64,000 nt of DNA. It comes from Saccoglossus kowalevskii (lineage: Eukaryota > Hemichordata > Enteropneusta > Harrimaniidae). This document shows positions 804-60,148 of the stretch, piece after piece; the stretch's first letter is position 1, and each line of letters opens with the position of its first letter. The stretch covers positions 1 to 64,000 of the forward strand of contig NW_003130783.1 of assembly GCF_000003605.2 (NCBI RefSeq). The letters are read 5' to 3'. The translations under genes and the position numbers were made by a program. Under the pieces are notes generated by a model. The model was not told the origin of the DNA, ran no database searches, and worked only from the letters and a program-made list of their open reading frames with translations.

Positions 804-899
804 CGATATCGATTTTAAAACATCCCAAAACCTGAAATAGCCTCTAATTCTGCTTAATTTCAATTGATCTACGCAGTTGTGTGGTTAGGTGACCGATAA
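1..899 (+). repeat. Monomer M0, partial, C form
   Basis: Lacks its first 12 bases at the window edge; reconstructed full length 911 bp. C form to about 803, A form after. The CAAAG cluster is degenerate (GAACCGTTCAAAG, GCAAAATTGATCAAAG). Confidence 0.95.
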
Positions 900-9307: not shown

Positions 9308-10250
9308 ATGTTTGAGGTAAAGCGCAATCGGGCGTGGTTAGTACTTGCATGGGAGACTCCCTGAGTAAACGAGCTGTTGAATTTTTTTTTTTGTTTCATC
9401 ACAGACATGGAAAAGATATACTTCAACATTTCTGCATTTTTCTTCCTGTGATGTCAATCATTTATTGTAGAAAATCGTGGCATTTTTGTAACTTTTTTAA
9501 CTAATGGAAAGTTTCGAAATTCCTTCTAATTTTCAAGTACAAGTTGTTGATGCTGTCGGCACGTAGTGGGTTTTAAGTTGTTAGCGCACCGTGCAAAGTT
9601 GTTCAAAGTCATTGCAAAGTTGTGCAAAGTTATTGCAAAGTTGGTAGATGTATTTGCATAAATGACCTAAGTTGTTGGCTTATAGAAACGCGCAGTCTAA
9701 AGTCGACAAGTTTAATAAAAGCCATTTGAAAGCAGCTTATAGATGTTCACGTGAGTTGACTTGTAAAATGTTAGAAAGCAGCGTGCAAAGTTGGAAAAAA
9801 CGAAAGAAATGTTGGCGGAGTTGCTTGTATATATAACATAAGTCATTATCATGACAACCCTGCAGTTAAATGTCGAAAATATTAAGTAAATGTTCCGAGA
9901 ATGCCTCATATGTAAGCAGATTGTCACAACAGTCAACCAAAAAGTCGACTACAAACTGCTTACAAAGTTGTGAAAAGCGATTGCAAAGTTGGTATTTTCA
10001 TTCGGGATTGTTACCTGTGATATCATATTAACAAGTCCCATAGTTAAAAGTTCGAAAATGTGAATAAAGATTTCGTTAATTGATGTTAAATTACCGTAGT
10101 CTTACTCCAAGTATGTAGATGTCATAGGTCAATTCTAGAAGATATTTGCGTAGACGATATCGATTTTAAAACATCTCAAAACCTGAAATAGCCGGGAATT
10201 CGGCCTAATTGCATGTTTTCTATGCAGTTGTGTGGTTAGGTGACCGATAA
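9308..10250 (+). repeat. Monomer M10, B form, 943 bp
   Basis: First B monomer with a B start. GCGCAGTCTAAAG (short), GACTTGTAAAATG, AGAAAGCAGC and ATATAACATAAG are private. Confidence 0.95.
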
Positions 10251-11190
10251 ATGATTGAGGTAAAGCGCAATTGGGCGTGGTTAGTACTTGCATGGGAGAC
10301 TTCCTGAGTAAACGAGCTGTTGATTTTTTTTTGTTTCATCACAGACATTGAAAAGATATACTTCAACATTTCTGCATTTTTCTTCTTGTGATGTCAATCA
10401 TTTATTGTATAAAATCGTGGCATTTTTGTAACTTTTTTAACTAATGGAAAGTTTCGAAATTCCTTCTAATTTTCAAGTACAAGTTGTTGATGCTGTCGGC
10501 ACGTAGTGGGTTTTAAGTTGTTAACGCACCATGCAAAGTTGTTCAAAGTCATTACAAAGTTGTGCAAAGTTATTGCAAAGTTGGTAGATGTATTTGCATA
10601 AATGACCTAAGTTGTTGGCTTATAGAAACGCGCAGTTGTAAAGTCGACAAATTTAATAAAAGCCAGTTCAAAGCAGCTTATTGATGTTCACGTGAGTTGA
10701 CTGTAAAATTTTAGAAAACAGCGTGCAAAGTTGGAAAAAACGAAAGAAATGTTGGCGGAGTTGCTTGTATATATAACCTAAGTCATTATCATGACAACCC
10801 CGAAGTTAAATGTCGAAAATATTAAGTAAATGTTCGAAGAATGCCTCATATGTAAGCAGATTGTCACAACAGTCAACCAAAAAGTCGACTACAAACTGCT
10901 TACAAAGTTGTGAAAAGCGATTGCAAAGTTGGTATTTTCATTCGGGATTGTTACCTGTGATATCATATTAACAAGTCCCATAGTTAAAAGTTCGAAAATG
11001 TGAATAAAGATTTCGTTAATTGATGTTAAATTACCGTAGTCTTACTCCAAGTATGTAGATGTCATAGGTCAATTCTAGAAGATATTTGCGTAGACGATAT
11101 CGATTTTAAAACATCTCAAAACCCGAAATAGCCGGGAATTCGGCGTAATTGCATGTTTTTTATGCAGTTGTGTGGTTAGGTGACCGATAA
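10251..11190 (+). repeat. Monomer M11, B form, 940 bp
   Basis: Starts ATGATTGAGG with CAATTGGGCG; GACATTGAAAAG, TTGTATAAAATCG, ACCATGCAAAG, GTCATTACAAAG and TTATTGATGTTC. Confidence 0.95.
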
Positions 11191-12129
11191 ATGTTTGAGG
11201 TAAAGCGCAATCGGGCGTGGGTAGTACTTGCATGGGAGACTCCCTGAGTAAACGAGCTGTTGAATTTTTTTGTTGTTTCATCACAGACATGGAAAAGATA
11301 TACTTCAACATTTCTGCATTTTTCTTCCTGTGATGTCAATCATTTATTGTAGAAAATCGTGGCATTTTTGTAACTTGTTTTAACTAATGGAAAGTTTCGA
11401 AATTCCTTCTAATTTTCAAGTACAAGTTGTTGATGCTGTCGGCACGTAGTGGGTTTTAAGTTGTTAGCGCACCGTGCAAAGTTGTTCAAAGTCATTGCAA
11501 AGTTGTGCAAAGTTATTGCAAAGTTGGTAGATGTATTTGCATAAATGACCTAAGTTGTTGGCTTATAGAAACGCGCAGTTGTAAAGTCGACAAGTTTATA
11601 AAAGCCATTTGAAAGCAGCTTATAGATGTTCACGTGAGTTGACTGTAAAAATGTTAGAAAACAGCGTGTAAAGTTTGAAAAACGAAAGAAATTTTGGCGG
11701 AGTGCTTGTATATATAACTAAGTCATTATCATGACAACCCCGCAGTTAAATGTCGAAAATATTAAGTAAATGTTCCGAGAATGCCTCATATGTAAGCAGA
11801 TTGTCACAACAGTCAACCAAAAAGTCGACTACAAACTGCTTACAAAGTTGTGAAAAGCGATTGCAAAGTTGGTATTTCATTTGGGATTGTTACCTGTGAT
11901 ATCATTTTAACAAGTCCCATAGTTAAAAGCTCGAAAATGTGAATAAATATTTCGTTAATTGATGTTAAATTACCGTAGTCTTACTCCAAGTATGTAGATG
12001 TCATAGTTCAATTCTAGAAGATATTTGCGTAGACGATATCGATTTTAAAACATCTCAAAACCTGAAATAGCCGGGAATTCGGCCTAATTGCATGTTTTCT
12101 ATGCAGTTGTGTGGTTAGGTGACCGATGG
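11191..12129 (+). repeat. Monomer M12, B form, 939 bp, indel-rich
   Basis: GCGTGGGTAG, CTTGTTTTAAC, then a cluster of one-base losses between about 11600 and 11880 (GTTTATAAAAG, GGAGTGCTTG, TATAACTAAG, GGTATTTCAT). Confidence 0.93.
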
Positions 12130-13070
12130 ATGTTTGAGGTAAAGCGCAATCGGGCGTGGTTAGTATTTGCATGGGAAACTCCCTGAGTAAACGAGCTGTT
12201 GAATTTTTTTTTGTTTCATCACAGACATGGAAAAGATATACTTCAACATTTCTGCATTTTTCTTCCTGTGATGTCAATCATTTATTGTAGAAAATCGTGG
12301 CATTTTTGTAACTTTTTTAACTAATGGAAAGTTTCGAAATTCCTTCTAATTTTCAAGTACAAGTTGTTGATGCTGTCGGCACGTAGTGGGTTTTAAGTTG
12401 TTAACGCACCGTGCAAAGTTGTTCAAAGTCATTGCAAAGTTGTGCAAAGTTATTGCAAAGTTGGTAGATGTATTTGCATAAATGACCTAAGTTGTTGGCT
12501 TATAGAAACGCGCAGTACTAAAGTCGACAAGTTTAATAAAAGCCATTTGAAAGCAGCTTATAGATGTTCACGTGAGTTGACTGTAAAATGTTAGAAAACA
12601 GCGTGCAAAGTTGGAAAAAACGAAAGAAATGTTGGCGGAGTTTCTTGTATATATAACCTAAGTCATTATCATGACAACCCCGCAGTTAAATGTCGAAAAT
12701 ATTAAGTAAATGTTCCGAGAATGCCTCATATGTAAGCAGATTGTCACAACAGTCAACCAAAAAGTCGACTACAAACTGCTTACAAAGTTGTGAAAAGCGA
12801 TTGCAAAGTTGGTATTTTCATTTGGGATTGTTACCTGTGATATCATATTATCAAGTCCCATAGTTAAAAGTTCGAAAATGTGAATAAAGATTTCGTTAAT
12901 TGATGTTAAATTACCGTAGTCTTACTCCAAGTATGTAGATGTCATAGGTCAATTCTAGAAGATATTTGCGTAGATGATATCGATTTTAAAACATCTCAAA
13001 ACCTGAAATAGCCGGGAATTCGGCCTAATTGCATGTTTTCTATGCAGTTGTGTGGTTAGGTGACCGATAA
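12130..13070 (+). repeat. Monomer M13, B form, 941 bp
   Basis: Preceded by GACCGATGG; ATGGGAAACTCC, CAGTACTAAAG, GGAGTTTCTTG, ATATTATCAAGTCC. Confidence 0.95.
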
Positions 13071-14011
13071 ATGTTTGAGGTAAAGCGCAATCGGGCGTGG
13101 TTAGTACTTGCATGGGAGACTCCCTGAGTAAACGAGCTGTTGAATTTTTTTTTTGTTTCATCACAGAGATGGAAAAGATATACTTCAACATTTCTGCATT
13201 TTTCTTACTGTGATGTCAATCATTTATTGTAGAAAATCGTGGCATTTTTGTAACTTTTTTAACTAATGGAAAGTTTCGAAATTCCTTCTAATTTTCAAGT
13301 ACAAGTTGTTGATGCTGTCGGCACGTAGTGGGTTTTAAGTTGTTAGCGCACCGTGCAAAGTTGTTCAAAGTCATTGCAAAGTTGTGCAAAGTTATTGCAA
13401 AGTTGGTAGATGTATTTGCATAAATGACCTAAGGTGTTGGCTTATAGAAACGCGCAGTTGTAAAGTCGACAAGTTTAATAAAAGCCATTTGAAAGCAGCT
13501 TATAGATGTTCACGTGAGTTGACTGTAAAATGTTAGAAAACAGCGTGCAAAATTGGAAAAAACGAATGAAATGTTGGCGGAGTTGCTTGTATATATAACC
13601 TAAGTCATTATCATGACAACCCCGAAGTTAAATGTCGAAAATATTAAGTAAATGTTCGGAGAATGCCTCATATGTAAGCAGATTGTCACAACAGTCAACC
13701 AAAAAGTCGACTACAAACTGCTTACAAAGTTGTGAAAAGCGATTGCAAAGTTGGTATTTTCATTCGAGATTGTTACCTGTGATATCATATTAACAAGTCC
13801 CATAGTTAAAAGTTCGAAAATGTGAATAAAGATTTCGTTAATTGATGTTAAATTACCGTAGTCTTACTCCAAGTATGTAGATGTCATAGGTCAATACTAG
13901 AAGATATTTGCGTAGACGATATCGATTTTAAAACATCTCAAAACCTGAAATAGCCGGGAATTCGACCTAATTGTATGTTTTCTATGCAGTTGTGTGGTTA
14001 GGTGACTGATG
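13071..14011 (+). repeat. Monomer M14, B form, 941 bp
   Basis: CACAGAGATGG and TTCTTACTGTG (both shared with M31 and M33), CTAAGGTGTTGG, GCAAAATTGG, AACGAATGAAATG. Confidence 0.95.
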
Positions 14012-14950
14012 AATGTTTGAGGTAAAGCGCAATCGGGCGTGGTTAGTACTTGCATGGGAGACTCCCTGAGTAAACGAGCTGTTTTTTTTTTTGTTTCATC
14101 ACAGACATGGAAAAGATATACTTCAACATTTCTGCATTTTTCTTCCTGTGATGTCAGTCATTTATTGTAGAAAATCCTGGCATTTCTGTAACTTTTTTAA
14201 CTAATGGAAAGTTTCGAAATTCCTTCTAATTTTCAAGTACAAGTTGTTGATGCTGTCGGCACGTAGTGGGTTTTAAGTTGTTAACGCACCGTGCAAAGTT
14301 GTTCAAAGTCATTGCCAAGTTGTGCAAAGTTATTGCAAAGTTGGTAGATATATTTGCATAAATGACCTAAGTTGTTGGCTTATAGAAACGCGCAGTTCTA
14401 AAGTCGACAAGTTTAATAAAAGCCATTTGAAAGCAGCTTATAGATGTTCACGTGAGTTGACTGTAAAATGTTAGAAAACAGCGTGCAAAGTTGGAAAAAA
14501 CGAAAGAAATGTTGGCGGAGTTGCTTGTATATATAACCTAAGTCATTATCATGACAACCCCGCAGTTAAATGTCGAAAATATTAAGTAAATGTTCCGAGA
14601 ATGCCTCATATGTAAGCAGATTGTCACAACAGTCAACCAAAAAGTCGACTACAAACTGCTTACAAAGTTGTGAAAAGCGATTGCAAAGTTGGTATTTTCA
14701 TTTGGGATTGTTACCTGTGATATCATATTAACAAGTCCCATAGTTAAAAGTTCGAAAATGTGAATTAATATTTCGTAAATTGATGTTAAATTACCGTAGT
14801 CTTACTCCAAGTATGTAGATGTCATAGGTCAATTCTAGAAGATATTTGCGGAGACGATATCGATTTTAAAACATCTCAAAACCTGAAATAGCCGAGACTT
14901 CGGCCTAATTGCATGTTTTCTATGCAGTTGTGTGGTTAGGTGACCGATGA
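14012..14950 (+). repeat. Monomer M15, B form, 939 bp
   Basis: Loses GAA before the T-run; TGTCAGTCATT, AATCCTGGCATTTCTG, ATTGCCAAG, GATATATTTGC. Ends with GAATTAATATTTCG and TTTGCGGAGACG, shared with the end of M17. Confidence 0.95.
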
Positions 14951-15894
14951 ATGTTTGAGGTAAAGCGCAATCGGGCGTGGTTAGTATTTGCATGGGAGAC
15001 TCCCTGAGTAAACGAGCTGTTGAATTTTTTTTTTTGTTTCATCACAGACATGGAAAAGATATACTTCAACATTTCTGCATTTTTCTTCCTGTGATGTCAA
15101 TCATTTATTGTAGAAAATCGTGGCATTTTTGTAACTTTTTTTAACTAATGGAAAGTTTCGAAATTCCTTCTAATTTTCAAGTACAAGTTGTTGATGCTGT
15201 CGGCACGTAGTGGGTTTTAAGTTGTTAACGCACCGTGCAAAGTTGTTCAAAGTCATTGCCAAGTTGTGCAAAGTTATTGCAAAGTTGGTAGATATATTTG
15301 CATAAATGACCTAAGTTGTTGGCTTATAGAAACGCGCAGTTCTAAAGTCGACAAGTTTAATAAAAGCCATTTGAAAGCAGCTTATAGATGTTCACGTGAG
15401 TTGACTGTAAAATGTTAGAAAACAGCGTGCAAAGTTGGAAAAAACGAAAGAAATGTTGGCGGAGTTGCTTGTATATATAACCTAAGTCATTATCATGACA
15501 ACCCCGCAGTTAAATGTCGAAAATATTAAGTAAATGTTCCGAGAATGCCTCATATGTAAGCAGATTGTCACAACAGTCAACCAAAAAGTCGACTACAAAC
15601 TGCTTACAAAGTTGTGAAAAGCGATTGCAAAGTTGGTATTTTCATTTGGGATTGTTACCTGTGATATCATTTTAACAAGTCCCATAGTTAAAAGCTCGAA
15701 AACGTGAATAAATATTTCGTTAATTGATGTTAAATTACCGTAGTCTTACTCCAAGTATGTAGATGTCATAGGTCAATTCTAGAAGATATTTGCGTAGGCG
15801 ATATCGATTTTAAAACATCTCAAAACCTGAAATATCCGGGAATTCGGCCTAATTGCATGTTTTCTATGCAGTTGTGTGGTTAGGTGACCGATGA
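14951..15894 (+). repeat. Monomer M16, B form, 944 bp
   Basis: ATTGCCAAG, GATATATTTGC, ends with AAAACGTGAATAAAT, TAGGCGATATC and GAAATATCCGGG, all shared with the end of M39. Confidence 0.95.
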
Positions 15895-16836
15895 ATGTTT
15901 GAGGTAAAGCGCAATCGGGCGTGGTTAGTATTTGCATGGGAGACTCCCTGAGTAAACGAGCTGTTGAATTTCTTTTTTGTTTCATCACAGACATGGAAAA
16001 GATATACTTCAACATTTCTGCATTTTTCTTCCTGTGATGTCAATCATTTATTGTAGAAAATCGTGGCATTTTTGTAACTTTTTTAACTAATGGAAAGTTT
16101 CGAAATTCCTTCTAATTTTCAAGTACAAGTTGTTGATGCTGTCGGCACGTAGTGGGTTTTAAGTTGTTAACGCACCGTGCAAAGTTGTTCAAAGTCATTG
16201 CCAAGTTGTGCAAAGTTATTGCAAAGTTGGTAGATATATTTGCATAAATGACCTAAGTTGTTGGCTTATAGAAACGCGCAGTTCTAAAGTCGACAAGTTT
16301 AATAAAAGCCATTTGAAAGCAGCTTATAGATGTTCACGTGAGTTGACTGTAAAATGTTAGAAAACAGCGTGCAAAGTTGGAAAAAACGAAAGAAATGTTG
16401 GCGGAGTTGCTTGTATATGTAACCTAAGTCATTATCATGACAACCCCGCAGTTAAATGTCGAAAATATTAAGTAAATGTTCCGAGAATGCCTCATATGTA
16501 AGCAGATTGTCACAACAGTCAACCAAAAAGTCGACTACAAACTGCTTACAAAGTTGTGAAAAGCGATTGCAAAGTTGGTATTTTCATTTGGGATTGTTAC
16601 CTGTGATATCATATTAACAAGTCCCATAGTTAAAAGTTCGAAAATGTGAATTAATATTTCGTAAATTGATGTTAAATTACCGTAGTCTTACTCCAAGTAT
16701 GTAGATGTCATAGGTCAATTCTAGAAGATATTTGCGGAGACGATATCGATTTTAAAACATCTCAAAACCTGAAATAGCCGAGAATTCGGCCTAATTGCAT
16801 GTTTTCTATGCAGTTGTGTGGTTAGGTGACCGATGA
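15895..16836 (+). repeat. Monomer M17, B form, 942 bp
   Basis: T-run broken by C (GAATTTCTTTTTTG), as in M40, M42 and M44. GTATATGTAACC private. Its end repeats the end of M15 at about 1886 bp. Confidence 0.95.
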
Positions 16837-17780
16837 ATGTTTGAGGTAAAGCGCAATCGGGCGTGGTTAGTATTTGCATGGGAGACTCCCTGAGTAAACG
16901 AGCTGTTGAATTTTTTTTTTTTGTTTCATCACAGACATGGAAAAGATATACTTCAACATTTCTGCATTTTTCTTCCTGTGATGTCAATCATTTATTGTAG
17001 AAAATCGTGGCATTTTTGTAACTTTTTTAACTAATGGAAAGTTTCGAAATTCCTTCTAATTTTCATGTACAAGTTGTTGATGCTGTCGGCACATAGTGGG
17101 TTTTAAGTTGTTAACGCACCGTGCAAAGTTGTTCAAAGTCATTGCCAAGTTGTGCAAAGTTATTGCAAAGTTGGTAGATGTATTTGCATAAATGACCTAA
17201 GTTGTTGGCTTATATAAACGCGCAGTTCTAAAGTCGACAAGTTTAATAAAAGCCATTTGAAAGCAGCTTATAGATGTTCACGTGAGTTGACTGTAAAGTG
17301 TTAGAAAACAGCGTGCAAAGTTGGAAAAAACGAAAGAAATGTTGGCGGAGTTGCTTGTATATATAACCTAAGTCATTATCATGACAACCCCGCAGTTAAA
17401 TGTCGAAAATATTAAGTAAATGTTCCGAGAATGCCTCATATGTAAGCAGATTGTCACAACAGTCAACCAAAAAGTCGACTAAAAACTGCTTACAAAGTTG
17501 TGAAAAGCGATTGCAAAGTTGGTATTTTCATTTGGGATTGTTACCTGTGATATCATTTTAACAAGTCTCATAGTTAAAAGCTCGAAAATGTGAATAAATA
17601 TTTCGTTAATTGATGTTAAATTACCGTAGTCTTACTCCAAGTATGTAGATGTCATAGGTCAATTCTAGAAGATATTTGCGTAGGCGATATCGATTTTAAA
17701 ACATCTCAAAACCTGAAATAGCCGGGAATTCGGCCTAATTGCATGTTTTCTATGCAGTTGTGTGGTTAGGTGACCGATGA
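16837..17780 (+). repeat. Monomer M18, B form, 944 bp
   Basis: TTTTCATGTACAAG, GGCACATAGTGG, CTTATATAAACGC, GTAAAGTGTTAG, CGACTAAAAACTGC, AAGTCTCATAG. Confidence 0.95.
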
Positions 17781-18721
17781 ATGTTTGAGGTAAAGCGCAA
17801 TCGGGCGTGGTTAGTATTTGCATGGGAGACTCCCTGAGTAAACGAGCTGTTGAATTTTTTTTTTGTTTCATCACAGACATGGAAAAGATATACTTCAACA
17901 TTTCTGCATTTTTCTTCCTGTGATGTCAATCATTTATTGTAGAAAATCGTGGCATTTTTGTAACTTTTTTAACTAATGGAAAGTTTCGAAATTCCTTCTA
18001 ATTTTCAAGTACAAGTTGTTGATGCTGTCGGCACGTAGTGGGTTTTAAGTTGTTAATGCACCGTGCAAAGTTGTTCAAAGTCATTGCCAAGTTGTGCAAA
18101 GTTATTGCAAAGTTGGTAGATATATTTGCATAAATGACCTAAGTTGTTGGCTTATAGAAACGCGCAGTTCTAAAGTCGACAAGTTTAATAAAAGCCATTT
18201 GAAAGCAGCTTATAGATGTTCACGTGAGTTGACTGTAAAATGTTAGAAAACAGCGTGCATAGTTGGAAAAAACGAAAGAAATGTTGGCGGAGTTGCTTGT
18301 ATATATAACCTAAGTCATTATCATGACAACCCCGCAGTTAAATGTCGAAAATATTAAGTAAATGTTCGGAGAATGCCTCATATGTAAGCAGATTGTCACA
18401 ACAGTCAACCAAAAAGTCGACTACAAACTGCTTACAAAGTTGTGAAAAGCGATTGCAAAGTTGGTATTTTCATTTGGGATTGTTACCTGTGATATCATTT
18501 TAACAAGTCCCATAGTTAAAAGCTCGAAAATGTGAATAAAGATTTCGTTAATTGATGTTAAATTACCGTAGTCTTACTCCAAGTATGTAGATGTCATAGG
18601 TCAATTCTAGAAGATATTTGCGTAGACGATATCGATTTTAAAACATCTCAAAACCTGAAATAGCCGGGAATTCGGCCTAATTGCATGTTTTCTATGCAGT
18701 TGTGTGGTTAGGTGACCGATG
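17781..18721 (+). repeat. Monomer M19, B form, 941 bp
   Basis: GTTAATGCACCG and GTGCATAGTTGG are private; GCCAAG and GATATATTTGC shared with M15-M17. Confidence 0.95.
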
Positions 18722-19664
18722 AATGTTTGAGGTAAAGCGCAATCGGGCGTGGTTAGTATTTGCATGGGAGACTCCCTGAGTAAACGAGCTGATGAATTTT
18801 TTTTTTGTTTCATCACAGACATGGAAAAGATATACTTCAACATTTCTGCATTTTTCTTCCTGTGATGTCAATCATTTATTGTAGAAAATCGTGGCATTTT
18901 TGTAACTTTTTTAACTAATGGAAAGTTTCGAAATTCCTTCTAATTTTCAAGTACAAGTTGTTGATGCTGTCGGCACATAGTGGGTTTTAAGTTGTTAACG
19001 CGCCGTGGAAAGTTGTTCAAAGTCATTGCCAAGTCGTGCAAAGTTATTGCAAAGTTGGTAGATGTATTTGCGTAAATGACCTAAGTTGTTGGCTTATAGA
19101 AACGCGCAGTTCTAAAGTCGACAAGTTTAATAAAAGCCATTTGAAAGCAGCTTATAGATGTTCACGTGAGTTGACTGTAAAATGTTAGAAAACAGCGTGC
19201 AAAGTTGGAAAAAACGAAAGAAATGTTGGCGGAGTTGCTTGTATATATAACCTAAGTCATTATCATGACAACCCCGCAGTTAAATGTCGAAAATATTAAG
19301 TAAATGTTCGGAGAATGCCTCATATATAAGCAGATTGTCACAACAGTCAACCAAAAAGTCGACTACAAACTGCTTACAAAGTTGTGAAAAGCGATTGCAA
19401 AGTTGGTATTTTCATTTGGGATTGTTACCTGTGATATCATTTTAACAAGTCCCATAGTTAAAAGCTCGAAAATGTGAATAAATATTTCGTTAATTGATGT
19501 TAAATTACCGTAGTCTTACTCCAAGTATGTAGATGTCATAGGTCAATTCTAGAAGATATTTGCGTAGGCGATATCGATTTTAAAACATCTCAAAACCTGA
19601 AATACCCGGGAATTCGGCCTAATTGCATGTTTTCTATGCAGTTGTGTGGTTAGGTGACCGATAA
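18722..19664 (+). repeat. Monomer M20, B form, 943 bp
   Basis: GAGCTGATGAAT, GCGCCGTGGAAAG, CAAGTCGTGC, TTTGCGTAAATG, GAAATACCCGGG. CATATATAAGC resembles A/C. Confidence 0.95.
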
Positions 19665-20603
19665 ATGTTTGAGGTAAAGCGCAATCGGTCGTGGTTAGTA
19701 CTTGCATGGGAGACTCCCTTAGTAAACGAGCTGTTGAATTTTTTTTGTTTCATCACAGACATGGAAAAGATATACTTCAACATTTCTGCATTTTTCTTCC
19801 TGTGATGTCAATCATCTATTGTAGAAAATCGTGCATTTTTGTAACTTTTTTAACTAATGGAAAGTTTCGAAATTCCTTCTAATTTTCAAGTACAAGTTGT
19901 TGATGCTGTCGGCACGTAGTGGGTTTTAAGTTGTTAACGCACCGTGCAAAGTTGTTCAAAGTCATTGCAAAGTTGTGCAAAGTTATTGCAAAGTTGGTAG
20001 ATGTATTTGCATAAATGACCTAAGTTGTTGGCTTATAGAAACGCGCAGTTCTAAAGTCGACAAGTTTAATAAAAGCCAGGTGAAAGTAGCTTATAGATGT
20101 TCACGTGAGTTGACTGTAAAATGTTAGAAAACAGCGTGCAAAGTTGGAAAAAACGAAAGAAATGTTGGCGGAGTTGCTTGTATATATAACCTAAGTCATT
20201 ATCATGACAACTCCGCAGTTAAATGTCGAAAATATTAAGTAAATGTTCCGAGAATGCCTCATATGTAAGCAGATTGTCACAATAGTCAACCAAAAAGTCG
20301 ACTACAAACTGCTTACAAAGTTGTGAAAAGCGATTGCAAAGTTGGTATTTTCATTTGGGATTGTTACCTGTGATATCATTTTAACAAGTCCCATAGTTAA
20401 AAGCTCGAAAATGTGAATAAATATTTCGTTAATTGATGTGAAATTACCATAGTCTTAAACCAAGTATGTAGATGTCATAGGTCAATTCTAGAAGATATTT
20501 GCGTAGGCGATATCGATTTTAAAACATCTCAAAACCTGAAATAGCCGGGAATTCGGCCTAATTGCATGTTTTCTATGCAGTTGTGTGGTTAGGTGACCGA
20601 TAA
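19665..20603 (+). repeat. Monomer M21, B form, 939 bp
   Basis: CGGTCGTGG, CTCCCTTAGTAAAC, CATCTATTG and ATCGTGCATTTTTG, all but the third shared with M27 six monomers on. Confidence 0.95.
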
Positions 20604-32817: not shown

Positions 32818-33101
32818 ATGTTTGAGGTAAAGCGCAATCGGGCGTGGTTAGTATTTGCATGGGAGACTCCCTGAGTAAACGAGTTGTTGAATTTTTTTTT
32901 GTTTCATCACAGACATGGAAAAGATATACTTCAACATTTCTGCATTTTTCTTCCTGTGATGTCAATCATTTAATGTAGAAAATCCTGGCATTTTTGTAAC
33001 TTTTTTAACTAATGGAAAGTTTCGAAATTCCTTCCAATTTTCAAGTACAAGTTGTTGATGCTGTCGGCACGTAGTGGGTTTTAAGTTGTTAACGCACCGT
33101 G

Positions 33102-33148
33102 CAAAGTTGTTCAAAGTCATTGCAAAGTTGTGCAAAGTTATTGCAAAG
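33102..33148 (+). repeat. Five CAAAG words in helical phase (example in M35)
   Basis: CAAAG starts at 33102, 33112, 33123, 33133 and 33144: steps 10, 11, 10, 11, total 42 bp or 10.5 bp per step. Almost every monomer has this cluster. In A monomers the first word is CAAAA. M44 and M45 have each lost one unit. A second pair (33471 and 33492) is 21 bp apart. Confidence 0.9.
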
Positions 33149-33293
33149 TTGGTAGATGTATTTGCATAAATGACCTAAGTTGTTGGCTTATAGAAACGCG
33201 CAGTTCTAAAGTCGACAAGTTAAATAAAATCCATTTGAAAGCAGCTTATAGATGTTCACGTGAGTTGACTGTAAAATGTTAGAAAACAGCGTG
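33123..33293 (+). repeat. Ancestral subunit 1 (example in M35), 171 bp
   Basis: Begins at the third CAAAG of the cluster. It aligns by eye with subunits 2 and 3: the CAAAGTTGTG start, a second CAAAG 21 bp on followed by TTGGTAG, and a GCAGTT-like word 77 bp after the start, then GTCGAC and a T/A-rich stretch. Its first 33 bases match subunit 3 at nearly all positions. The same layout can be found in A, B and C monomers. Confidence 0.75.
33256..33263. other. TCACGTGA palindrome (example in M35)
   Basis: An 8-bp perfect palindrome with a CACGTG (E-box/G-box) core occurs once per monomer in A, B and C. A has GGTCACGTGAG, B has GTTCACGTGAG, C has GTCACGTGAC (10-bp palindrome). M63 has two because of its duplication. 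M47 is altered to TCGCGTGA at about 44527. Known: such cores bind bHLH-type proteins. Whether anything binds here is unknown. Confidence 0.8.
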
Positions 33294-33470
33294 CAAAGTT
33301 GGAAAAAACGAAAGAAATGTTGGCGGAGTTGCTTGTATATATAACCTAAGTTATTATCATGACAACCCCGAAGTTAAATGTCGAAAATATTAAGTAAATG
33401 TTCCGAGAATGCCTCATATGTAAGCATATTGTCACAACAGTCAACCAAAAAGTCGACTACAAACTGCTTA
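33294..33470 (+). repeat. Ancestral subunit 2 (example in M35), 177 bp
   Basis: Begins TGCAAAGTTGG, has AAATGTTGG in the place of the second CAAAGTTGG, then ATAACCTAAGT (compare ATGACCTAAGT in subunit 1), CCCCGAAGTTAAA (compare CGCGCAGTT), and ATTAAGTAAATG (compare GTGAATAAA in subunit 3). Confidence 0.75.
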
Positions 33471-33645
33471 CAAAGTTGTGAAAAGCGATTGCAAAGTTGG
33501 TATTTTCATTCGGCATTGTTACCTGTGATATCATATTAACAAGTCCCATAGTTAAAAGTTCGAAAATGTGAATAAAGATTTCGTTAATTGATGTTAAATT
33601 ACCGTAGTCTTACTCCAAGTATGTAGATGTCATAGGTCAATTCTA
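33471..33645 (+). repeat. Ancestral subunit 3 (example in M35), about 175 bp
   Basis: Begins CAAAGTTGTGAAAAGCG, second CAAAG at 33492, then TCCCATAGTTAAAAG in the place of CCCCGAAGTTAAATG of subunit 2, GTGAATAAAGATTTC, and TTACCGTAGTCTTACTCC (compare TAAGCATATTGTCACAAC). Its right edge is uncertain; homology fades near the TCTAGAAG word. Confidence 0.7.
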
Positions 33646-33758
33646 GAAGATATTTGCGTAGGCGATATCGATTTTAAAACATCTCAAAACCTGAAATAGC
33701 CGGGAATTCGGCCTAATTGCATGTTTTCTATGCAGTTGTGTGGTTATGTGACCGATAA

Positions 33759-34700
33759 ATGTTTGAGGTAAAGCGCAATCGGGCGTGGTTAGTACTTGCA
33801 TGGGAGACTCCCTGAGTAAACGAGCTGTTGAATTTTTTTTTTGTTTCATCACAGACATGGAAAAGATATACTTCAACATTTCTGCATTTTTCTTCCTGTG
33901 ATGTCAATCATTTATTGTAGAAAATCGTGGCATTTTTGTAACTTTTTTAACTAATGGAAAGTTTCGAAATTCCTTCTAATTTTCAAGTACAAGTTGTTGA
34001 TGCTGTCGGCACGTAGTGGGTTTTAAGTTGTTAGCGCACCGTGCAAAGTTGTTCAAAGTCATTGCAAAGTTGTGCAAAGTTATTGCAAAGTTGGTAGATG
34101 TATTTGCATAAATGACCTAAGTTGTTGGCTTATAGAAACGCGCAGTTCTAAAGTCGACAAGTTTAATAAAAGCCATTTGAAAGCAGCTTATAGATGTTCA
34201 CGTGAGTTGACTGTAAAATGTTAGAAAACAGCGTGCAAAGTTGGAAAAAACGAAAGAAATGTTGGCGGAGTTGCTTGTATATATAACCTAAGTCATTATC
34301 ATGACAACCCCGCAGTTAAATGTCAAAAATATTAAGTAAATGTTCGGAGAATGCCTCATATGTAAGCAGATTGTCACAACAGTCAACCAAAAAGTCGACT
34401 ACAAACTGCTTACAAAGTTGTGAAAAGCGATTGCAAAGTTGGTATTTTCATTCGGGATTGTTACCTGTGATATCATATTAACAAGTCCCATAGTTAAAAG
34501 TTCGAAAATGTGAATAAAGATTTCGTTAATTGATGTTAAATTACCGTAGTCTTACTCCAAGTATGTAGATGTCATAGGTCAATTCTAGAAGATATTTGCG
34601 TAGACGATATCGATTTTAAAACATCTCAAAACCTGAAATAGCCGGGAATTCGGCCTAATTGCATGTTTTCTATGCAGTTGTGTGGTTAGGTGACCGATAA
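33759..34700 (+). repeat. Monomer M36, B form, 942 bp
   Basis: Preceded by GGTTATGTGACC; GTTAGCGCACC (shared with M10, M12, M14); GTCAAAAATATT private. Confidence 0.95.
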
Positions 34701-35641
34701 ATGTTTGAGGTAAAGCGCAATCGGGCGTGGTTAGTACTTGCATGGGAGACTCCCTGAGTAAACGAGCTGTTGAATTTTTTTTTGTTTCATCACAGACATG
34801 GAAAAGATATACTTCAACATTTCTGCATTTTTCTTCCTGTGATGTCAATCATTTATTGTAGAAAATCGTGGCATTTTTGTAACTTTTTTAACTAATGGAA
34901 AGTTTCGAAATTCCTTCTAATTTTCAAGTACAAGTTGTTGATGCTGTCGGCACGTAGTGGGTTTTAAGTTGTTAACGCACCGTGCAAAGTTGTTCAAAGT
35001 CATTGCCAAGTTGTGCAAAGTTATTGCAAAGTTGGTAGATGTATTTGCATAAATGACCTAAGTTGTTGGCTTATAGAAACGCGCAGTTCTAAAGTCGACA
35101 AGTTTAATAAAAGCCATTTGAAAGCAGCTTATAGATGTTCACGTGAGTTGACTATAAAATGTTAGAAAACAGCGTGCAAAGTTGGAAAAAACGAAAGAAA
35201 TGTTGGCGGAGTTGCTTGTATATATAACCTAAGTCATTATCATGACAACCCCGCAGTTAAATGTCGAAAATATTAAGTAAATGTTCCGAGAATGCCTCAT
35301 ATGTAAGCAGATTGTCACAACAGTCAACCAAAAAGTCGACTACAAACTGCTTACAAAGTTGTGAAAAGCGATTGCAAAGTTGGTATTTTCATTTGGGATT
35401 GTTAACTGTGATATCATTTTAACAAGTCCCATAGTTAAAAGCTCGAAAATGTGAACAAATATTTCGTTAATTGATGTTAAATTACCGTAGTCTTACTCCA
35501 AGTATGTAGATGTCATAGGTCAATTCTAGAAGATATTTGCGTAGGCGATATCGATTTTAAAACATCTCAAAACCTGAAATAGCCGGGAATTCGGCCTAAT
35601 TGCATGTTTTCTATGCAGTTGTGTGGTTAGGTGACCGATAA
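34701..35641 (+). repeat. Monomer M37, B form, 941 bp
   Basis: Close to the B consensus. GCCAAG; GACTATAAAATG (shared with M38); GTTAACTGTG and GAACAAATATT private. Confidence 0.95.
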
Positions 35642-36584
35642 ATGTTTGAGGTAAAGCGCAAATGGGCGTGGTTAGTACTTGCATGGGAGACTCCCTGAGT
35701 AAACGAGCTGTGGAATTTTTGTGTTTGTTTCATCACTGACATGGAAAAGATATACTTCAACATTTCTGCATTTTTCTTCCTGTGATGTCAATCATTTATT
35801 GTAGAAAATCGTGGCATTTTTGTAACTTTTTTAACTAATGGAAAGTTTCGAAATTCCTTCTAATTTTCAAGTACAAGTTGTTGATGCTGTCGGCACGTAG
35901 TGGGTTTTAAGTTGTTAACGCACCGTGCAAAGTTGTTCAAAGTCATTGCAAAGTTGTGCAAAGCTATTGCAAAGTTGGTAGATGTATTTGCATAAATGAC
36001 CTAAGTTGTTGGCTTATAGAAACGCGCAGTTCTAAAGTCGACAAGTTTAATAAAAGCCATTTGAAAGCAGCTTATAGATGTTCACGTGAGTTGACTATAA
36101 AATGTTAGAAAACAGCGTGCAAAGTTGGAAAAAACGAAAGAAATGTTGGCGGAGTTGCTTGTATATATAACCTAAGTCATTATCATGACATCCCCGAAGT
36201 TAAATGTCGAAAATATTAAGTAAATGTTCGGAGAATGCCTCATATGTAAGCAGATTGTCACAACAGTCAACCAAAAAGTCGACTACAAACTGCTTACAAA
36301 GTTGTGAAAAGCGATTGCAAACTTGGTATTTTCATTCGGGATTGTTACCTGTGATATCATATTAACAAGTCCCATAGTTAAAAGTTCGAAAATGTGAATA
36401 AAGATTTCGTTAATTGATGTTAAATTACCGTAGTCTTACTCCAAGTATGTAGATGTCATAGGCCAATTCTAGAAGATATTTGCGTAGACGATATCGATTT
36501 TAAAACATCTGAAAACCTGAAATAGCCGGGAATTCGGCCTAATTGCATGTTTTCTATGCAGTTGTGTGGTAAGGTGACCGATGA
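35642..36584 (+). repeat. Monomer M38, B form, 943 bp
   Basis: GCGCAAATGGG, CTGTGGAATTTTTGTG, CATCACTGAC, AAGCTATTGC, GACATCCCC, GCAAACTTGG. End CATCTGAAAACC and GGTAAGG match the end of M31. Confidence 0.95.
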
Positions 36585-37525
36585 ATGTTTGAGGTAAAGC
36601 GCAATCGGGCGTGGTTAGTATTTGCATGGGAGACTCCCTGAGTAAACGAGCTGTTGAATTTTTTTTTGTTTCATCACAGACATGGAAAAGATATACTTCA
36701 ACATTTCTGCATTTTTCTTCCTGTGATGTCAATCATTTATTGTAGAAAATCGTGGCATTTTTGTAACTTTTTTAACTAATGGAAAGTTTCGAAATTCCTT
36801 CTAATTTTCAAGTACAAGTTGTTGATGCTGTCGGCACATAGTGGGTTTTAAGTTGTTAACGCACCGTGCAAAGTTGTTCAAAGTCATTGCCAAGTTGTGC
36901 AAAGTTATTGAAAAGTTGGTAGATGTATTTGCATAAATGACCTAAGTTGTTGGCTTATAGAAACGCGCAGTTCTAAAGTCGACAAGTTTAATAAAAGCCA
37001 TTTGAAAGCAGCTTATAGATGTTCACGTGAGTTGACTGTAAAATGTTAGAAAACAGCGTGCAAAGTTGGAAAAAACGAAAGAAATGTTGGCGGAGTTGCT
37101 TGTATATATAACCTAAGTCATTATCATGACAACCCCGCAGTTAAATGTCGAAAATATTAAGTAAATGTTCCGAGAATGCCTCATATGTAAGCAGATTGTC
37201 ACAACAGTCAACCAAAAAGTCGACTACAAACTGCTTACAAAGTTGTGAAAAGCGATTGCAAAGTTGGTATTTTCATTTGGGATTGTTACCTGTGATATCA
37301 TTTTAACAAGTCCCATAGTTAAAAGCTCGAAAACGTGAATAAATATTTCGTTAATTGATGTTAAATTACCGTAGTCTTACTCCAAGTATGTAGATGTCAT
37401 AGGTCAATTCTAGAAGATATTTGCGTAGGCGATATCGATTTTAAAACATTTCAAAACCTGAAATATCCGGGAATTCGGCCTAATTGCATGTTTTCTATGC
37501 AGTTGTGTGGTTAGGTGACCGATGA
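36585..37525 (+). repeat. Monomer M39, B form, 941 bp
   Basis: CACATAGTGG, TTGAAAAGTTGG. End AAAACGTGAATAAAT and GAAATATCCGGG as in M16. Confidence 0.95.
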
Positions 37526-38467
37526 ATGTTTGAGGTTAAGCGCAATCGGGCGTGGTTAGTATTTGCATGGGAGACTCCCTGAGTAAACGAGCTGTTGAAT
37601 TTCTTTTTTGTTTCATCACAGACATGGAAAAGATATACTTCAACATTTCTGCATTTTTCTTCCTGTGATGTCAATCATTTATTGTAGAAAATCGTGGCAT
37701 TTTTGTAACTTTTTTAACTAATGGAAAGTTTCGAAATTCCTTCTAATTTTCAAGAACAAGTTGTTGATGCTGTCGGCACATAGTGGGTTTTAAGTTGTTA
37801 ACGCACCGTGCAAAGTTGTTCAAAGTCATTGCCAAGTTGTGCAAAGTTATTGCAAAGTTGGTAGATGTATTTGCATAAATGACCTAAGTTGTTGGCTTAT
37901 AGAAACGCGCAGTTCTAAAGTCGACAAGTTTAATAAAAGCCATTTGAAAGCAGCTCATAGATGTTCACGTGAGTTGACTGTAAAATGTTAGAAAACAGCG
38001 TGCAAAGTTGGAAAAAACGAAAGAAATGTTGGCGGAGTTGCTTGTATATATAACCTAAGTCATTATCATGACAACCCCGCAGTTAAATGTCGAACATATT
38101 AAGTAAATGTTCCGAGAATGCCTCATGTGTAAGCAGATTGTCACAACAGTCAACCAAAAAGTCGACTACAAACTGCTTACAAAGTTGTGAAAAGCGATTG
38201 CAAAGTTGGTATTTTCATTTGGGAGTGTTACCTGTGATATCATTTTAACAAGTCCCATAGTTAAAAGCTCGAAAATGTGAATAAATATTTCGTTAATTGA
38301 TGTTAAATTACCGTAGTCTTACTCCAAGTATGTAGATGTCATAGGTCAATTCTAGAAGATATTTGCGTAGGCGATATCGATTTTAAAACATCTCAAAACC
38401 TGAAATAGCCGGGAATTCGGCCTAATTGCATGTTTTCTATGCAGTTGTGTGGTTAGGTGACCGATGA
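37526..38467 (+). repeat. Monomer M40, B form, 942 bp
   Basis: GAGGTTAAGCG, C in the T-run, CAAGAACAAG, CACATAGTGG, CAGCTCATAG, CGAACATATT, CATGTGTAAGC, GGGAGTGTT. Confidence 0.95.
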
Positions 38468-39410
38468 ATGTATGAGGTAAAGCGCAATCGGGCGTGGTTA
38501 GTATTTGCATGGGAGACTCCCTGAGTAAACGAGCTGTTGAATTTATTTTTTGGTTCATCACAGACATGGAAAAGATATACTTCAACATTTCTGCATTTTT
38601 CTTCCTGTGATGTCAATCATTTATTGTAGAAAATCGTGGCATTTTTGTAACTTTTTTTAACTAATGGAAAGTTTCGAAATTCCTTCTAATTTTCAAGTAC
38701 AAGTTGTTGATGCTGTCGGCACGTAGTGGGTTTTAAGTTGTTAACGCACCGTGCAAAGTTGTTCAAAGTCATTGCCAAGTTGTGCAAAGTTATTGCAAAG
38801 TTGGTAGATATATTTGCATAAATGACCTAAGTTGTTGGCTTATAGAAACGCGCAGTTCTAAAGTCGACAAGTTTAATAAAAGCCATTTGAAAGCAGCTTA
38901 TAGATGTTCACGTGAGTTGACTGTAAAATGTTAGAAAACAGCGTGCAAAGTTGGAAAAAACGAAAGAAATGTTGGCGGAGTTGCTTGTATATATAACCTA
39001 AGTCATTATCATGACAACCCCGCAGTTAAATGTCGAAAATATTAAGTAAATGTTCGGAGAATGCCTCATATGTAAGCAGATTGTCACAACAGTCAACCAA
39101 AAAGTCGACTACAAACTGCTTACAAAGTTGTGAAAAGCGATTGCAAAGTTGGTATTTTCATTCGGGATTGTTACCTGTGATATCATATTAACAAGTCCCA
39201 TAGTTAAAAGTTCGAAAATGTGAATAAAGATTTTGTTAATTGATGTTAAATTACCGTAGTCTTACTCCAAGTATGTAGATGTCATAGGTCAATTCTAGAA
39301 GATATTTGCGTAGGTGATATCGATTTTAAAACATCTCAAAACCTGAAGTAGCCGGGAATTCGGCCTAATTGCATGTTTTCTATGCAGTTGTGTGGTTAGA
39401 TGACCGATGA
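38468..39410 (+). repeat. Monomer M41, B form, 943 bp
   Basis: ATGTATGAGG, A in the T-run and TTTGGTTCATC, GCCAAG, GATATATTTGC. End GATTTTGTTAATTG, GTAGGTGATATC, GAAGTAGCC. Confidence 0.95.
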
Positions 39411-40348
39411 ATGTTTGAGGTAAAGCGCAATCGGGCGTGGTTAGTACTTGCATGGGAGACACCCTGAGTAAAAGAGCTGTTGAATTTCTTTTTTGTTTCA
39501 TCACAGACATGGAAAAGATATACTTCAACATTTCTGCATTTTTCTTCCTGTGATGTCAATCATTTATTGTAGAAAATCGTGGCATTTTTGTAATTTTTTT
39601 AACTAATGGAAAGTTTCGAAATTCCTTCTAATTTTCAAGTACAAGTTGTTGATGCTGTCGGCACGTAGTGGGTTTTAATTTGTTAACGCACTGTGCAAAG
39701 TTGTTCAAAGTCACTGCAAAGTTGTGCAAAGTTATTGCAAAGTTGGTAGATGTATTTGTATAAATGACCTAAGTTGTTGGCATATGGAAACGTGCAGTTG
39801 TAAAGTCGACAAATTTAATAAAAGCCAGGTGAAAGCAGCTTATAGATGTTCACGTGAGTTGACTGTAAAATGTTAGAAAACAGCGTGCAAAGTTGGAAAA
39901 ACGAATGAAATGTTGGCGGAGTTGCTTGTATATATACCTAAGTCATTATCATGACACCCGCGTTAAATGTCGAAAATATTAAGTAAATGTTCGGAGAATG
40001 CTCATATGTAAGCAGATTGTCACAACAAGTCAACCCAAAACGTCGACTACAAACTGCTTACAAAGTTGTGAAAAGCGATTGCAAAGTTGGTATTTTCATT
40101 TGGGATTGTTACCTGTGATATCATTTTAACAAGTCCCATAGTTAAAAGCTCGAAAATGTGAATAAATATTTCGTTAATTGATGTTAAATTACCGTAGTCT
40201 TACTCCAAGTATGTAGATGTCATAGGTCAATTCTAGAAGATATTTGCGTTGGCGATATCGATTTTAAAACATTTCAAAACCTGAAATAGCCGGGAATTCG
40301 TCCTAATTGCATGTTTTCTATGCAGTTGTGTGGTTAGGTGACCGATAA
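39411..40348 (+). repeat. Monomer M42, B form, 938 bp, indel-rich
   Basis: GAGACACCCTGAGTAAAAG, C in the T-run, AATTTGTTAACGCACTG, GGCATATGGAAACG. Dense indels at about 39896-40045 (TATATACCTAAG, GACACCCGCG, AATGCTCATATG, CACAACAAGTCAACCC). Confidence 0.93.
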
Positions 40349-41289
40349 ATGTTTGAGGTAAAGCGCAATCGGGCATGGTTAGTACTTGCATGGGAGACTC
40401 CCTGAGTAAACGAGCTGTTGAATTTTTTTTTGTTTCATCACAGACATGGAAAAGATATACTTCAACATTTCTGCATTTTTCTTCCTGTGATGTCAATCAT
40501 TTAGTGTAGAAAATCGTGGCATTTTTGTAACTTTTTTAACTAATGGAAAGTTTCGAAATTCCTTCTAATTTTCAAGTACAAGTTGTTGATGCTGTTGGCA
40601 CGTAGTGGGTTTTAAGTTGTTAACGCACCGTGCAAAGTTGTTCAAAGTCATTGCAAAGTTGTGCAAAGTTATTGCAAATTTGGTAGATGTATTTGCATAA
40701 ATGACCTAAGTTGTTGGCTTATAGAAACGCGCAGTTCTAAAGTCGACAAGTTTAATACAAGCCATTTGAAAGCAGCTTATAGATGTTCACGTGAGTTGAC
40801 TGTAAAATGTTAGAAAACAGCGTGCAAAGTTGGAAAAAACGAAAGAAATGTTGGCGGAGTTGCTTGTATATATAACCTAAGTCATTAGCATGACAACCCC
40901 GCAGTTAAATGTCGAAAATATTAAGTAAATGTTCGGAGAATGCCTCATATGTAAGCAGATTGTCACAACAGTCAACCAAAAAGTCGACTACAAACTGCTT
41001 ACAAAGTTGTGAAAAGCGATTGCAAAGTTGGTGTTTTCATTTGGGATTGTTACCTGTGATATCATTTTAACAAGTCCCATAGTTAAAAGCTCGAAAATGT
41101 GAATAAATATTTCGTTAATTGATGTTAAATTACCGTAGTCTTACTCCAAGTATGTAGATGTCATAGGTCAATTCTAGAAGATATTTGCGTAGACGATATC
41201 GATTTTAAAACATCTCAAAACCTGAAATAGCCGGGAATTCGGCCTAATTGCATGTTTTCTATGCAGTTGTGTGGTTAGGTCACCGATGA
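40349..41289 (+). repeat. Monomer M43, B form, 941 bp
   Basis: CGGGCATGG, TTTAGTGTAG, GCTGTTGGCACG, GCAAATTTGG, AATACAAGCC (as M27, M28), CATTAGCATG, GGTGTTTTC. Confidence 0.95.
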
Positions 41290-42221
41290 ATGTTTGAGGT
41301 AAAGCGCAATCGGGCGTGGTTAGTACTTGCATGGGAGACTCCCTGAGTAAACGAGCTGTTGAATTTCTTTTTTGTTTCTTCACAGACATGGAAAAGATAT
41401 ACTTCAACATTTCTGCAATTTTCTTCCTGTGATGTCAATCATTTATTGTAGAAAATCGTGGCATTTTTGTAACTTTTTTAACTAATGGAAAGTTTCGAAA
41501 TTCCTTCTAATTTTCAAGTACAAGTTGTTGATGCTGTCGGCACGTAGTGGGTTTTAAGTTGTTAACGCACCGTGCAAAGTCATTGCAAAGTTGTGCAAAG
41601 TTATTGCAAAGTTGGTAGATGTATATGCATAAATGACCTAAGTTGTTGGCTTATTGAAACGCGCAGTTGTAAAGTCGACAAATTTAATAAAAGCCAGTTG
41701 AAAGCAGCTTATAGATGTTCACGTGAGTTGACTGTAAAATGTTAGAAAACAGCGTGCAAAGTTGGAAAAAACGAAAGAAATGTTGGCGGAGTTGCTTGTA
41801 TTTATAACCTAAGTCATTATCATGACAACCCCGCAGTTAAATGTCGAAAATATTAAGTAAATGTTCCGAGAATGCCTCATATGTAAGCAGATTGTCACAA
41901 CAGTCAACCAAAAAGTCGACTACAAACTGCTTACAAAGTTGTGAAAAGCGATTGCAAAGTTGGTATTTTCATTTGGGATTGTTACCTGTGATATCATTTT
42001 AACAAGTCCCATAGTTAAAAGCTCGAAAATGTGAATAAATATTTCGTTAATTGATGTTAAATTACCGTAGTCTTACTCCAAGTATGTAGATGTCATAGGT
42101 CAATTCTAGAAGATATTTGTGTAAACGATATCGATTTTAAAATATCCCAAAACCTGAAATAGCCTCGAATTCTGCTTAATTTCAAATGATCTATGCAGTT
42201 GTGTGGTTAGGTGACCGATAA
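41290..42221 (+). repeat. Monomer M44, B/A chimera, 932 bp
   Basis: B form to about 42050, A form after 42119. One CAAAG unit (10 bp) lost at about 41574. TTTCTTCACAG, CTGCAATTTTC and GTATTTATAACC private. Confidence 0.94.
42051..42120 (+). other. B-to-A junction inside M44
   Basis: The last strict B marker is TTTCGTTAATTG (ends about 42053); the first strict A marker is GTGTAAACGATATC from 42119. Everything after is A, everything before in M44 is B. Repeat register is kept. The junction lies at monomer offset about 760-830, unlike the left junction at about 480-550. Confidence 0.85.
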
Positions 42222-43151
42222 ATGTTTAAAGTAAAGCACAATCGGGCGTGGTTAGTACTTGCACGGGAGACTCCCCGAGCAAACGAGGTGTTGAATTTTT
42301 TTTTCAATACAAACATGGAAAAGATATACGGCAACAATTCTGCATTTTTTCTTCCTGTGATGTCAAACATTTATAGCAGACAATCGTAGCATTTTTGTAA
42401 CTTTTTGAACTAAAGAAAAGTTTCGCAATTGCTTCTAATTTTCAAGTACAAGTTGTTGATGCTGTCGACACGCAGTGGGTTTTAAGTTGTTAACGCACCG
42501 TGCAAAATTGTTCAAAGTCATTGCAAAGTTGTGCAAAGTTTGTAGATGTACTTGTATAAATGACCTAAGTTGTTGGCTTATAGAAACGCACAGTTGTAAA
42601 GTCGAAAAGTTTATTAAAAGCCAATTGGAAGCAGCTTATAGATGGTCACGTGAGTTGACTGTAAAATGTTAGAAAACAGCGAGCAAAGTTGTAAAAAACG
42701 AAAAAAATGTTGGCGGAGTTGCTTGTATATATATATAACCTAAGTCATTATCATGACAACCCCGCAGTTAAATGTATAAAAGATTAAGTAAATATTCCGA
42801 GAATGCCTCATATATAACCAGATTATCACAACAGTCACCGAAAAGTCGACAACAAACTGCTTACAAAGTTATGCAAAGCGATTTCAAAGTTGGTAGTTTC
42901 ATTCGGGATTTTTACCTGTGATATCATATTAACAAGTCCCGTGGTTAAAAGTTTGAACATGTGAATTAATATTTCTTAAATTGATGTTAAATTACCAAGG
43001 TCTTACTCCAAGTATGTAGAGGTCATAGGTCAATTCTAGAAGATATTTGCGTAGGCGATATCGATTTTAAATCATCCCAAAACCTGAAATAGCCTCGAAT
43101 TCGGAATGATTTCAAATGATCTATGCAGTTGTGTGGTTTGGTGACCGATAA
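42222..43151 (+). repeat. Monomer M45, A form alpha/x, 930 bp
   Basis: One CAAAG unit (11 bp) lost at about 42535. AGACAATCGTAGC, GTCGACACGC, GTCGAAAAG, CAATTGGAAGC; extended TA run before TAACC; CCAAGGTCTTAC. Confidence 0.94.
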
Positions 43152-59045: not shown

Positions 59046-59321
59046 ATGTTTAAAGTAAAGCACAATCGGACGTGGTTAGTACTTGCAGGGAGACTCCCCG
59101 AGTAAACGAGCTGTTGATTTTTTTTTTTCATTACAAACACGGAAAAGATATTCGGCAACATTTCTGCATTTTTTCTTTCGAGATGTCAAACATTTATAGC
59201 AAAAAAGCGTGGCATTTTTGTAACCTTTTGAACTAAAGAAAAGTTTCGCAATTGCTTCTAATTTTCAAGTACAAGTTGTTGATGCTGTCGGCACGTAGTG
59301 GGTTTTATGTTGTTAACGCGG

Positions 59322-59492
59322 CGTGCAAAATTGTTCAAAGTCATTGCAAAGTTGTGCAAAGTTATTGCAAAGTTTGTAGATGTACTTGTATAAATGACCT
59401 AAGTTGTTGGCTTATAGAAACGCGCAGTTGTAAAGTCGACATGTTTATTAAAAGCCAGTTGAAATCAGCTTATAGATGGTCACGTGAGTTGA
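59322..59492 (+). repeat. 171-bp internal direct duplication in M63, copy 1
   Basis: Runs from CGTGCAAAATTG through the CAAAG cluster to the TCACGTGA palindrome and GAGTTGA. Copy 2 follows directly at 59493. Both copies carry the private change GTCGACATG (normally GTCGACAAG), so the duplication followed that mutation. The junction GTTGAC/GTGC shows at most one base of microhomology. Confidence 0.93.
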
Positions 59493-59663
59493 CGTGCAAA
59501 ATTGTTCAAAGTCATTGCAAAGTTGTGCAAAGTTATTGCAAAGTTTGTAGATGTACTTGTATAAATGACCTAAGTTGTTGGCTTATTGAAACGCACAGTT
59601 GTAAAGTCGACATGTTTATTAAAAGCCAGTTGAAAGCAGCTTATAGATGGTCACGTGAGTTGA
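59493..59663 (+). repeat. 171-bp internal direct duplication in M63, copy 2
   Basis: Differs from copy 1 at a few bases (CTTATTGAAACGCACAG against CTTATAGAAACGCGCAG; GAAAGCAGC against GAAATCAGC). It raises M63 to 1103 bp, that is 932 plus 171, and fuses open frames into one of 141 codons. Confidence 0.93.
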
Positions 59664-60148
59664 CTGTAAAATATTAGAAAATAGCGTGCAAAGTTGTAAA
59701 AAAACGAAAGAAATGTTGGCGGAGTTGCTTGTATATATATATCCTAAGTCATTATCATGACAACCCCGCAGATAAATGTCTAAAAAGTAAATGTTCCGAG
59801 AATGCCTCATATATAACCAGATAATCACAACAGTCACCGAAAAGTCGACAACAAACTGCTTACAAAGTTATGAAAAGCGATTTCAAAGTTGGTAGTTTCA
59901 TTCGGGATTGTTACCTGTGATATCATATCAACAATCCCGTGGTTAAAAGTTTGAACATGTGAATAAATATATCGTAAGTTGATGTTAAATTACCGTAGTC
60001 TTACTCCAAGTATGCAGAGGTCATAGGTCAATTCTAGAAGATACTTGTGTAAACGATATCGATTTTAAAACAACCCAAAACCTGAAATAGCCTCTAATTC
60101 TGCTTAATTTCAAATGATCTATGCAGTTGTGTGGTTAGGTAACGATAA

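Follow-up and report, generated by a model that had tools for sequence, protein, structure and literature searches.

How was a satellite monomer of some 940 bp put together? The question is raised by a 64-kb window from Saccoglossus kowalevskii (positions 1 to 64,000 of contig NW_003130783.1), the whole of which is a single tandem array of a non-coding satellite repeat of about 940 bp. A first-pass annotation of this window had proposed that about half of the monomer arose by triplication of a unit, called nucleosome-sized in view of its length, that then diverged, and that the 940-bp repeat is therefore a fossil higher-order repeat. A tripled unit of 170-190 bp is indeed present, and its three copies together occupy 536 of the 942 bp of the monomer (57%); the other 43% bears on the second part of the proposal. 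All features described below lie on the forward (+) strand of the window.

To delimit monomers, the array was cut between anchors in a 5S-like part of the repeat. This generated 66 pieces, one of which comprised two monomers, for a total of 67 complete monomers; the partial pieces at both window ends were excluded from every monomer count. The monomer consensus is 942 bp long, and the 66 cut pieces are 92-99% identical to it. Using the bacterial code and start codons, we found one closed ORF of at least 120 aa in the 64 kb, at 59252-59677, over a duplicated unit in monomer 63 (m63; see below). The monomers fall into two families that are 9.2% apart over whole monomers. Family A forms one block of 36 monomers (m09-m44, 8374-42227) within a family-B array, with the 31 others around it, and the mean within-family difference is 3.1% for A (n=36) and 4.6% for 30 of the 31 others, with m60 set apart for its family-A-like tract. 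The monomers at the block edges, m09 and m44, are A/B hybrids in which the family switches inside the monomer, at differing points, and mixed A/B tracts also occur in m23, m25, m30 and m60.

We framed the three units to include their word-rich heads, taking the starts from the consensus and placing them by eye on the window sequence. In the monomer used here for coordinates, unit u1 (170 bp, 33099-33268) begins with a head of CAAAGT words, followed by a body with ACCTAAG and GCAGTT; u2 (188 bp, 33269-33456) has a degenerate head, TGTAAAATG...AAAACAGCGTGCAAAGTTGG; and u3 (about 178 bp, 33457-33634) has a 3' end that we set ourselves and that is not sharp. The landmarks from which the triplication was originally proposed were largely recovered. 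CAAAGTT words stand at 33123, 33294 and 33471, with spacings of 171 and 177, a second CAAAG-like word follows 21 bp on in all three stretches, and the GCAGTT-like word lies at +77 in each, as GCAGTT, GAAGTT and ATAGTT. A TA..ACC-type word said to come after it was recovered in part: ACCT is common to all three at +50, but it precedes the +77 word, so that the claimed order was wrong.

The head of u1 has a regularity of its own. Its five CAAAGT words start at positions 280, 290, 301, 311 and 322 of the family-A consensus, a spacing of 10/11/10/11 bp, and the u1 heads of m44 and m45 contain gaps of 10 and 11 bp, the length of one word. As read from the sequence, the five words at 33099-33151 would lie near one face of the helix and may constitute a candidate curvature or protein-binding array.

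A relationship above chance links the three stretches, over some 115-125 bp of each. The cleanest test of this homology was a leave-one-out search, in which a profile HMM built from two units had to find the third, and did so at the right place: u1 was recovered at 32.0 bits, u2 at 32.4 and u3 at 29.8, against maxima of 9.6, 6.2 and 7.7 among 500 shuffles each. These profile matches are 113-124 bp long and leave the last 39-51 bp of the units uncovered; the u1-u2 pairwise alignment reaches somewhat beyond them. Self-alignment of the consensus against dinucleotide shuffles, the check put forward with the original proposal, gave a score of 118, where 300 shuffles averaged 28.2 and reached no more than 46; the best path over the whole consensus ended at lag 178. 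Gapped pairwise (SW) comparisons on the consensus, for which u1 was started 31 bp later than in the final frame, scored 61 for u1-u2 and 65 for u2-u3 (0/1000 double shuffles each) and 42 for u1-u3 (1/1000). Ungapped matches over 80 bp numbered 46, 46 and 49, compared with maxima of 37, 36 and 37 at 710 other lags.

The same relationship was visible monomer by monomer. Using the final frames, and entering m63 with its doubled u1, no shuffle of 200 reached the observed score in 66 (u1-u2), 67 (u2-u3) and 63 (u1-u3) of the 67 monomers, and at most 10 of 200 shuffles did so in any of them; the 67 monomers are copies of one another, not independent trials.

The remainder of the monomer did not resemble the units. 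It consists of a segment between u3 and a 5S rRNA gene remnant (33635-33743), the remnant itself, and a segment from there to the next u1 (33843-34039), in which similarity to the units stayed within the shuffle range. Comparing the 399 bp of non-unit sequence with the units on both strands gave scores that were reached by 29, 75, 91, 364, 391 and 395 of 500 shuffles (six comparisons, uncorrected), and the unit HMMs found nothing above shuffles there. A fourth, weaker unit had been suggested to start at 33685, within the first of these segments, and is unsupported: it matched u1, u2 and u3 at 17, 23 and 20 of 80 ungapped positions, and the best values within 15 bp on either side (31, 28 and 31) stayed under the 36-37 reached at other lags. 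Gapped and HMM comparisons showed nothing exceptional, and we rejected this candidate.

Part of the non-unit DNA can be traced to another source. A 5S rRNA gene remnant occupies 33744-33836, its 3' half well kept (TCGGGCGTGGTTAGTACTTGCATGGGAGAC...) and its 5' half decayed and internally deleted. Against a human 5S sequence taken as yardstick, local alignment of the consensus scored 65 (maximum 31 in 500 shuffles; 20 on the minus strand), 32 of 36 bases in the core of the alignment were equal, and 67/67 monomers scored above all 200 of their own shuffles. The alignment runs into a T-run at 33833-33842 that, judged from the sequence, is at the place expected of the Pol III terminator of a 5S gene. 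Remnant and T-run (33744-33842) have a counterpart in every monomer; they are absent from the first-pass annotation.

No intact 5S gene was detected at the Rfam gathering score of 38 in one monomer of each family: RF00001 aligned full length at 33744-33836 with 14.9 bits (E 0.99), and the model gave 14.3 bits in the family-B monomer. A Rfam search of 4 kb did not list 5S at E up to 10. It returned six sub-threshold matches that we take as chance rather than functional RNA, namely four to SpR08_sRNA, in u2 (25-28 bits, where the gathering score is 80), and one each to snR50 and STnc400. The 5S part thus reads as a decayed copy, not a gene. Neither was it detectably more conserved than the rest of the monomer, by A-B fixed differences or by within-family variation, when judged by circular shifts. 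Fixed differences between the families amounted to 4.3% in the Rfam span versus 7.3% elsewhere (206/942 circular shifts as low) and to 2.0% versus 7.3% in the core, c14-64 (102/942 as low); within families, variation in the Rfam span slightly exceeded that of the remaining sequence (857 and 667 of 942 shifts being as low). Five monomers, m01-m03, m07 and m61 (895-3691, 6504 and 57189), have in common an 11-bp gap in the 5S part, with 5S alignment scores of 34-39. The scattered places of this variant suggest exchange or conversion.

Because about 400 bp lack similarity to the units and include a 5S remnant, the monomer is a composite. The view of the 940-bp repeat as a fossil higher-order repeat therefore applies to its tripled, diverged unit, but not to these 400 bp, and the whole is closer in its make-up to an rDNA repeat whose spacer has subrepeats than to an array of units of the alpha-satellite type.

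We then compared units across the array. Mean identity is 94-95% within a unit position and 52-55% between positions, and for 0/202 units was the nearest neighbour drawn from another unit position. Since units cluster by position without exception, homogenisation has operated at 940 bp and not between units. All three units are present, in order, in both families, and the triplication therefore predates the A/B split.

One monomer departs from this pattern in an instructive way. m63 carries a tandem duplication of u1 (59323-59663), with copies at 59323-59493 and 59494-59663 (TRF: 171 x 2.1, 97%). This 171-bp insert is the only one of its kind in the 67 monomers, the next largest insert being 11 bp. 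The two copies differ at 3/170 positions. They share GTCGACATG, a variant with no other occurrence in the window, and the duplication therefore most likely took place in this monomer after the GTCGACATG change. After ...GAGTTGAC the second copy starts exactly where u2 would have started, which is the old u1/u2 boundary; the exchange fused the beginnings of two heads, that of u2 and that of u1. Only about one base is identical between them at the junction, and pairing guided by the heads is therefore a guess. A repeat that holds a freshly doubled u1 establishes nested duplication as real, and m63 demonstrates that duplications with the period of the unit can still occur in the array. The coincidence of the m63 junction with the old boundary suggests how the trimer arose, an origin that we infer to have been the same.

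Several other histories could produce a monomer of this appearance. It is improbable that only the CAAAGT word array is shared, having spread by microsatellite-like growth, with the unit bodies alike by chance or composition. Removing the CAAAG-word head does render u1-u3 non-significant (224/1000 shuffles reach the score), and ungapped body matches counted from +31 (27, 26 and 28) are about equal to the best of the 710 other lags (28, 29 and 28), so that u2 is the bridge on which body homology between u1 and u3 depends. The headless u1-u2 and u2-u3 comparisons nevertheless score 51 and 45, with 0/1000 shuffles reaching either, and ACCT at +50 and.AGTT at +77 stand in exact register in all three units. 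The opposite reading extends the units over the whole repeat, such that 940 bp would once have been about five units of 170-190 bp, two of them decayed past recognition. The arithmetic is agreeable (940/5 is about 188, inside the unit range), and the HMM run with u1 left out produced a weak second match at consensus 270-308, whose 11.0 bits exceed the 9.6-bit shuffle maximum but fall on the u1 head words. With the other 399 bp showing nothing above shuffles in pairwise or HMM comparison with the units, and with part of that DNA derived from 5S, we consider a full higher-order ancestry decidedly improbable.

Two further explanations invoke function. If this were functional 5S rDNA with long spacers, the trimer would be a set of spacer subrepeats, and 5S-like sequence in all 67 monomers, a T-run after the 5S 3' end and the low A-B difference in the 5S core (for all that 102 of the 942 shifts are as low) would be as expected. 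The decayed 5' half, Rfam scores far under gathering, the five monomers without 11 bp of the 5S part and a within-family variability no lower than that of the rest make a working array very hard to believe. Least credible is the idea that the units are alike mainly through selection for putative protein binding or nucleosome positioning rather than by descent. The CAAAGT spacing in u1 does approximate the DNA helical repeat; what selection of that kind leaves unexplained is similarity that spans 113-124 bp in one order, alongside the fresh m63 duplication, whose period is the same.

We therefore favour, as the probable history, a composite satellite monomer made of a 5S-gene-derived part and a tandemly tripled unit of 170-190 bp, for which we infer the following mechanism and sequence of events. 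A head of CAAAGT words at 10/11-bp spacing would have provided a unit start that is easily mispaired. Out-of-register exchange or slippage between heads could then have produced three tandem units, which later diverged, and the block of 5S plus trimer would have been amplified as a single 940-bp repeat. Unequal exchange and conversion would since have homogenised the 940-bp register. As there is one recent unit-level duplication in 67 monomers, the duplication mechanism rests on n=1. A bolder version of this composite history, which we regard as doubtful, makes the repeat a two-level amplifier: the helically phased CAAAGT heads would be preferred exchange points, units of 170 bp would still be added (as in m63) during homogenisation at 940 bp, and a dispersing 5S remnant would have been carried with them to become the frame of a new satellite of centromere type.

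Tandem, non-coding, near-identical monomers, each with 5S-homologous sequence, are the features of a 5S rDNA-derived satellite that we looked for, and all were found. The repeat is a further member of this class, a kind already known, and its length and nested tripled unit set it apart from the 5S-derived satellites compared here. The 5SHindIII-DNA of Hoplias malabaricus is described as a 360-bp repeat with a 95-bp 5S-like segment, its other 265 bp being spacer-like (PMC2713275; also PMC5437419). Both are tandem satellites that join further DNA to a stretch resembling part of 5S, 95 bp long in Hoplias and about 93 bp long in the present case; the present repeat differs in its 942 bp and in its internal tripled unit, a feature not known to have been described for 5SHindIII-DNA, a distinction drawn from descriptions. 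The PcP190 satellite of frogs, an approximately 190-bp repeat with a highly conserved 120-bp 5S-like part and a variable region (PMC11675491, PMC4201667), likewise combines a 5S-derived region with a further region in each tandem repeat. Unlike PcP190 as portrayed in those sources, the repeat here is about five times longer, and its 5S part shows no detectable excess of conservation over the remaining sequence. A 5S rDNA-derived satellite has also been named from Plantago lagopus (in the reference list of PMC12692304).

The nested periods invite comparison with alpha-satellite, whose monomers of about 171 bp are reported to be arranged in higher-order repeats (PMC8502840). Common to both are diverged units in a well homogenised larger repeat and the 171-bp figure, whereas here there are three units only, together with about 400 bp of unrelated DNA. 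We take the match at 171 bp as a probable coincidence. By the identities given above, the array does have the diverged units and near-alike larger repeats of a higher-order repeat; it is not one in the strict sense, because almost half of the monomer (about 400 of 942 bp) does not consist of units. Cannabis CS-237, for which rDNA spacer subrepeats of 45S type are described (PMC9183113), resembles it in having short repeats tied to a larger ribosomal-type tandem repeat, but the ribosomal component is 45S there and a 5S remnant here, again going by description.

The building of complex satellite monomers is usually deduced from finished products. Here one array preserves the remains of a 5S gene, a triplication of old date and, sharing the triplication's period and boundary, a recent duplication, so that relatives and long reads offer a way to test how a unit became a trimer and then a large monomer. 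It also advises caution, as not every nested period is an alpha-satellite-like higher-order repeat. We found no relatives of the repeat in plasmids, in IMG/VR (two exact patterns) or in GTDB contigs (one exact pattern); all are prokaryote, viral or plasmid collections, so this result carries little weight. Among the matches listed from the open-licence literature, no publication could be tied to the 940-bp repeat.

The family-A block also has structure above the level of the monomer. For 11 of the 35 family-A monomers compared, the nearest neighbour lies 21-26 monomers off, at 0.4-2.1% difference (9314-19671 and 33765-42227), as in the pairs m10-m36 and m16-m39. Such distant pairings suggest that a run of monomers was duplicated as a segment. 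On a smaller scale, m15, m17 and m18 each pair best with the monomer two places off, which gives a local dimer pattern.
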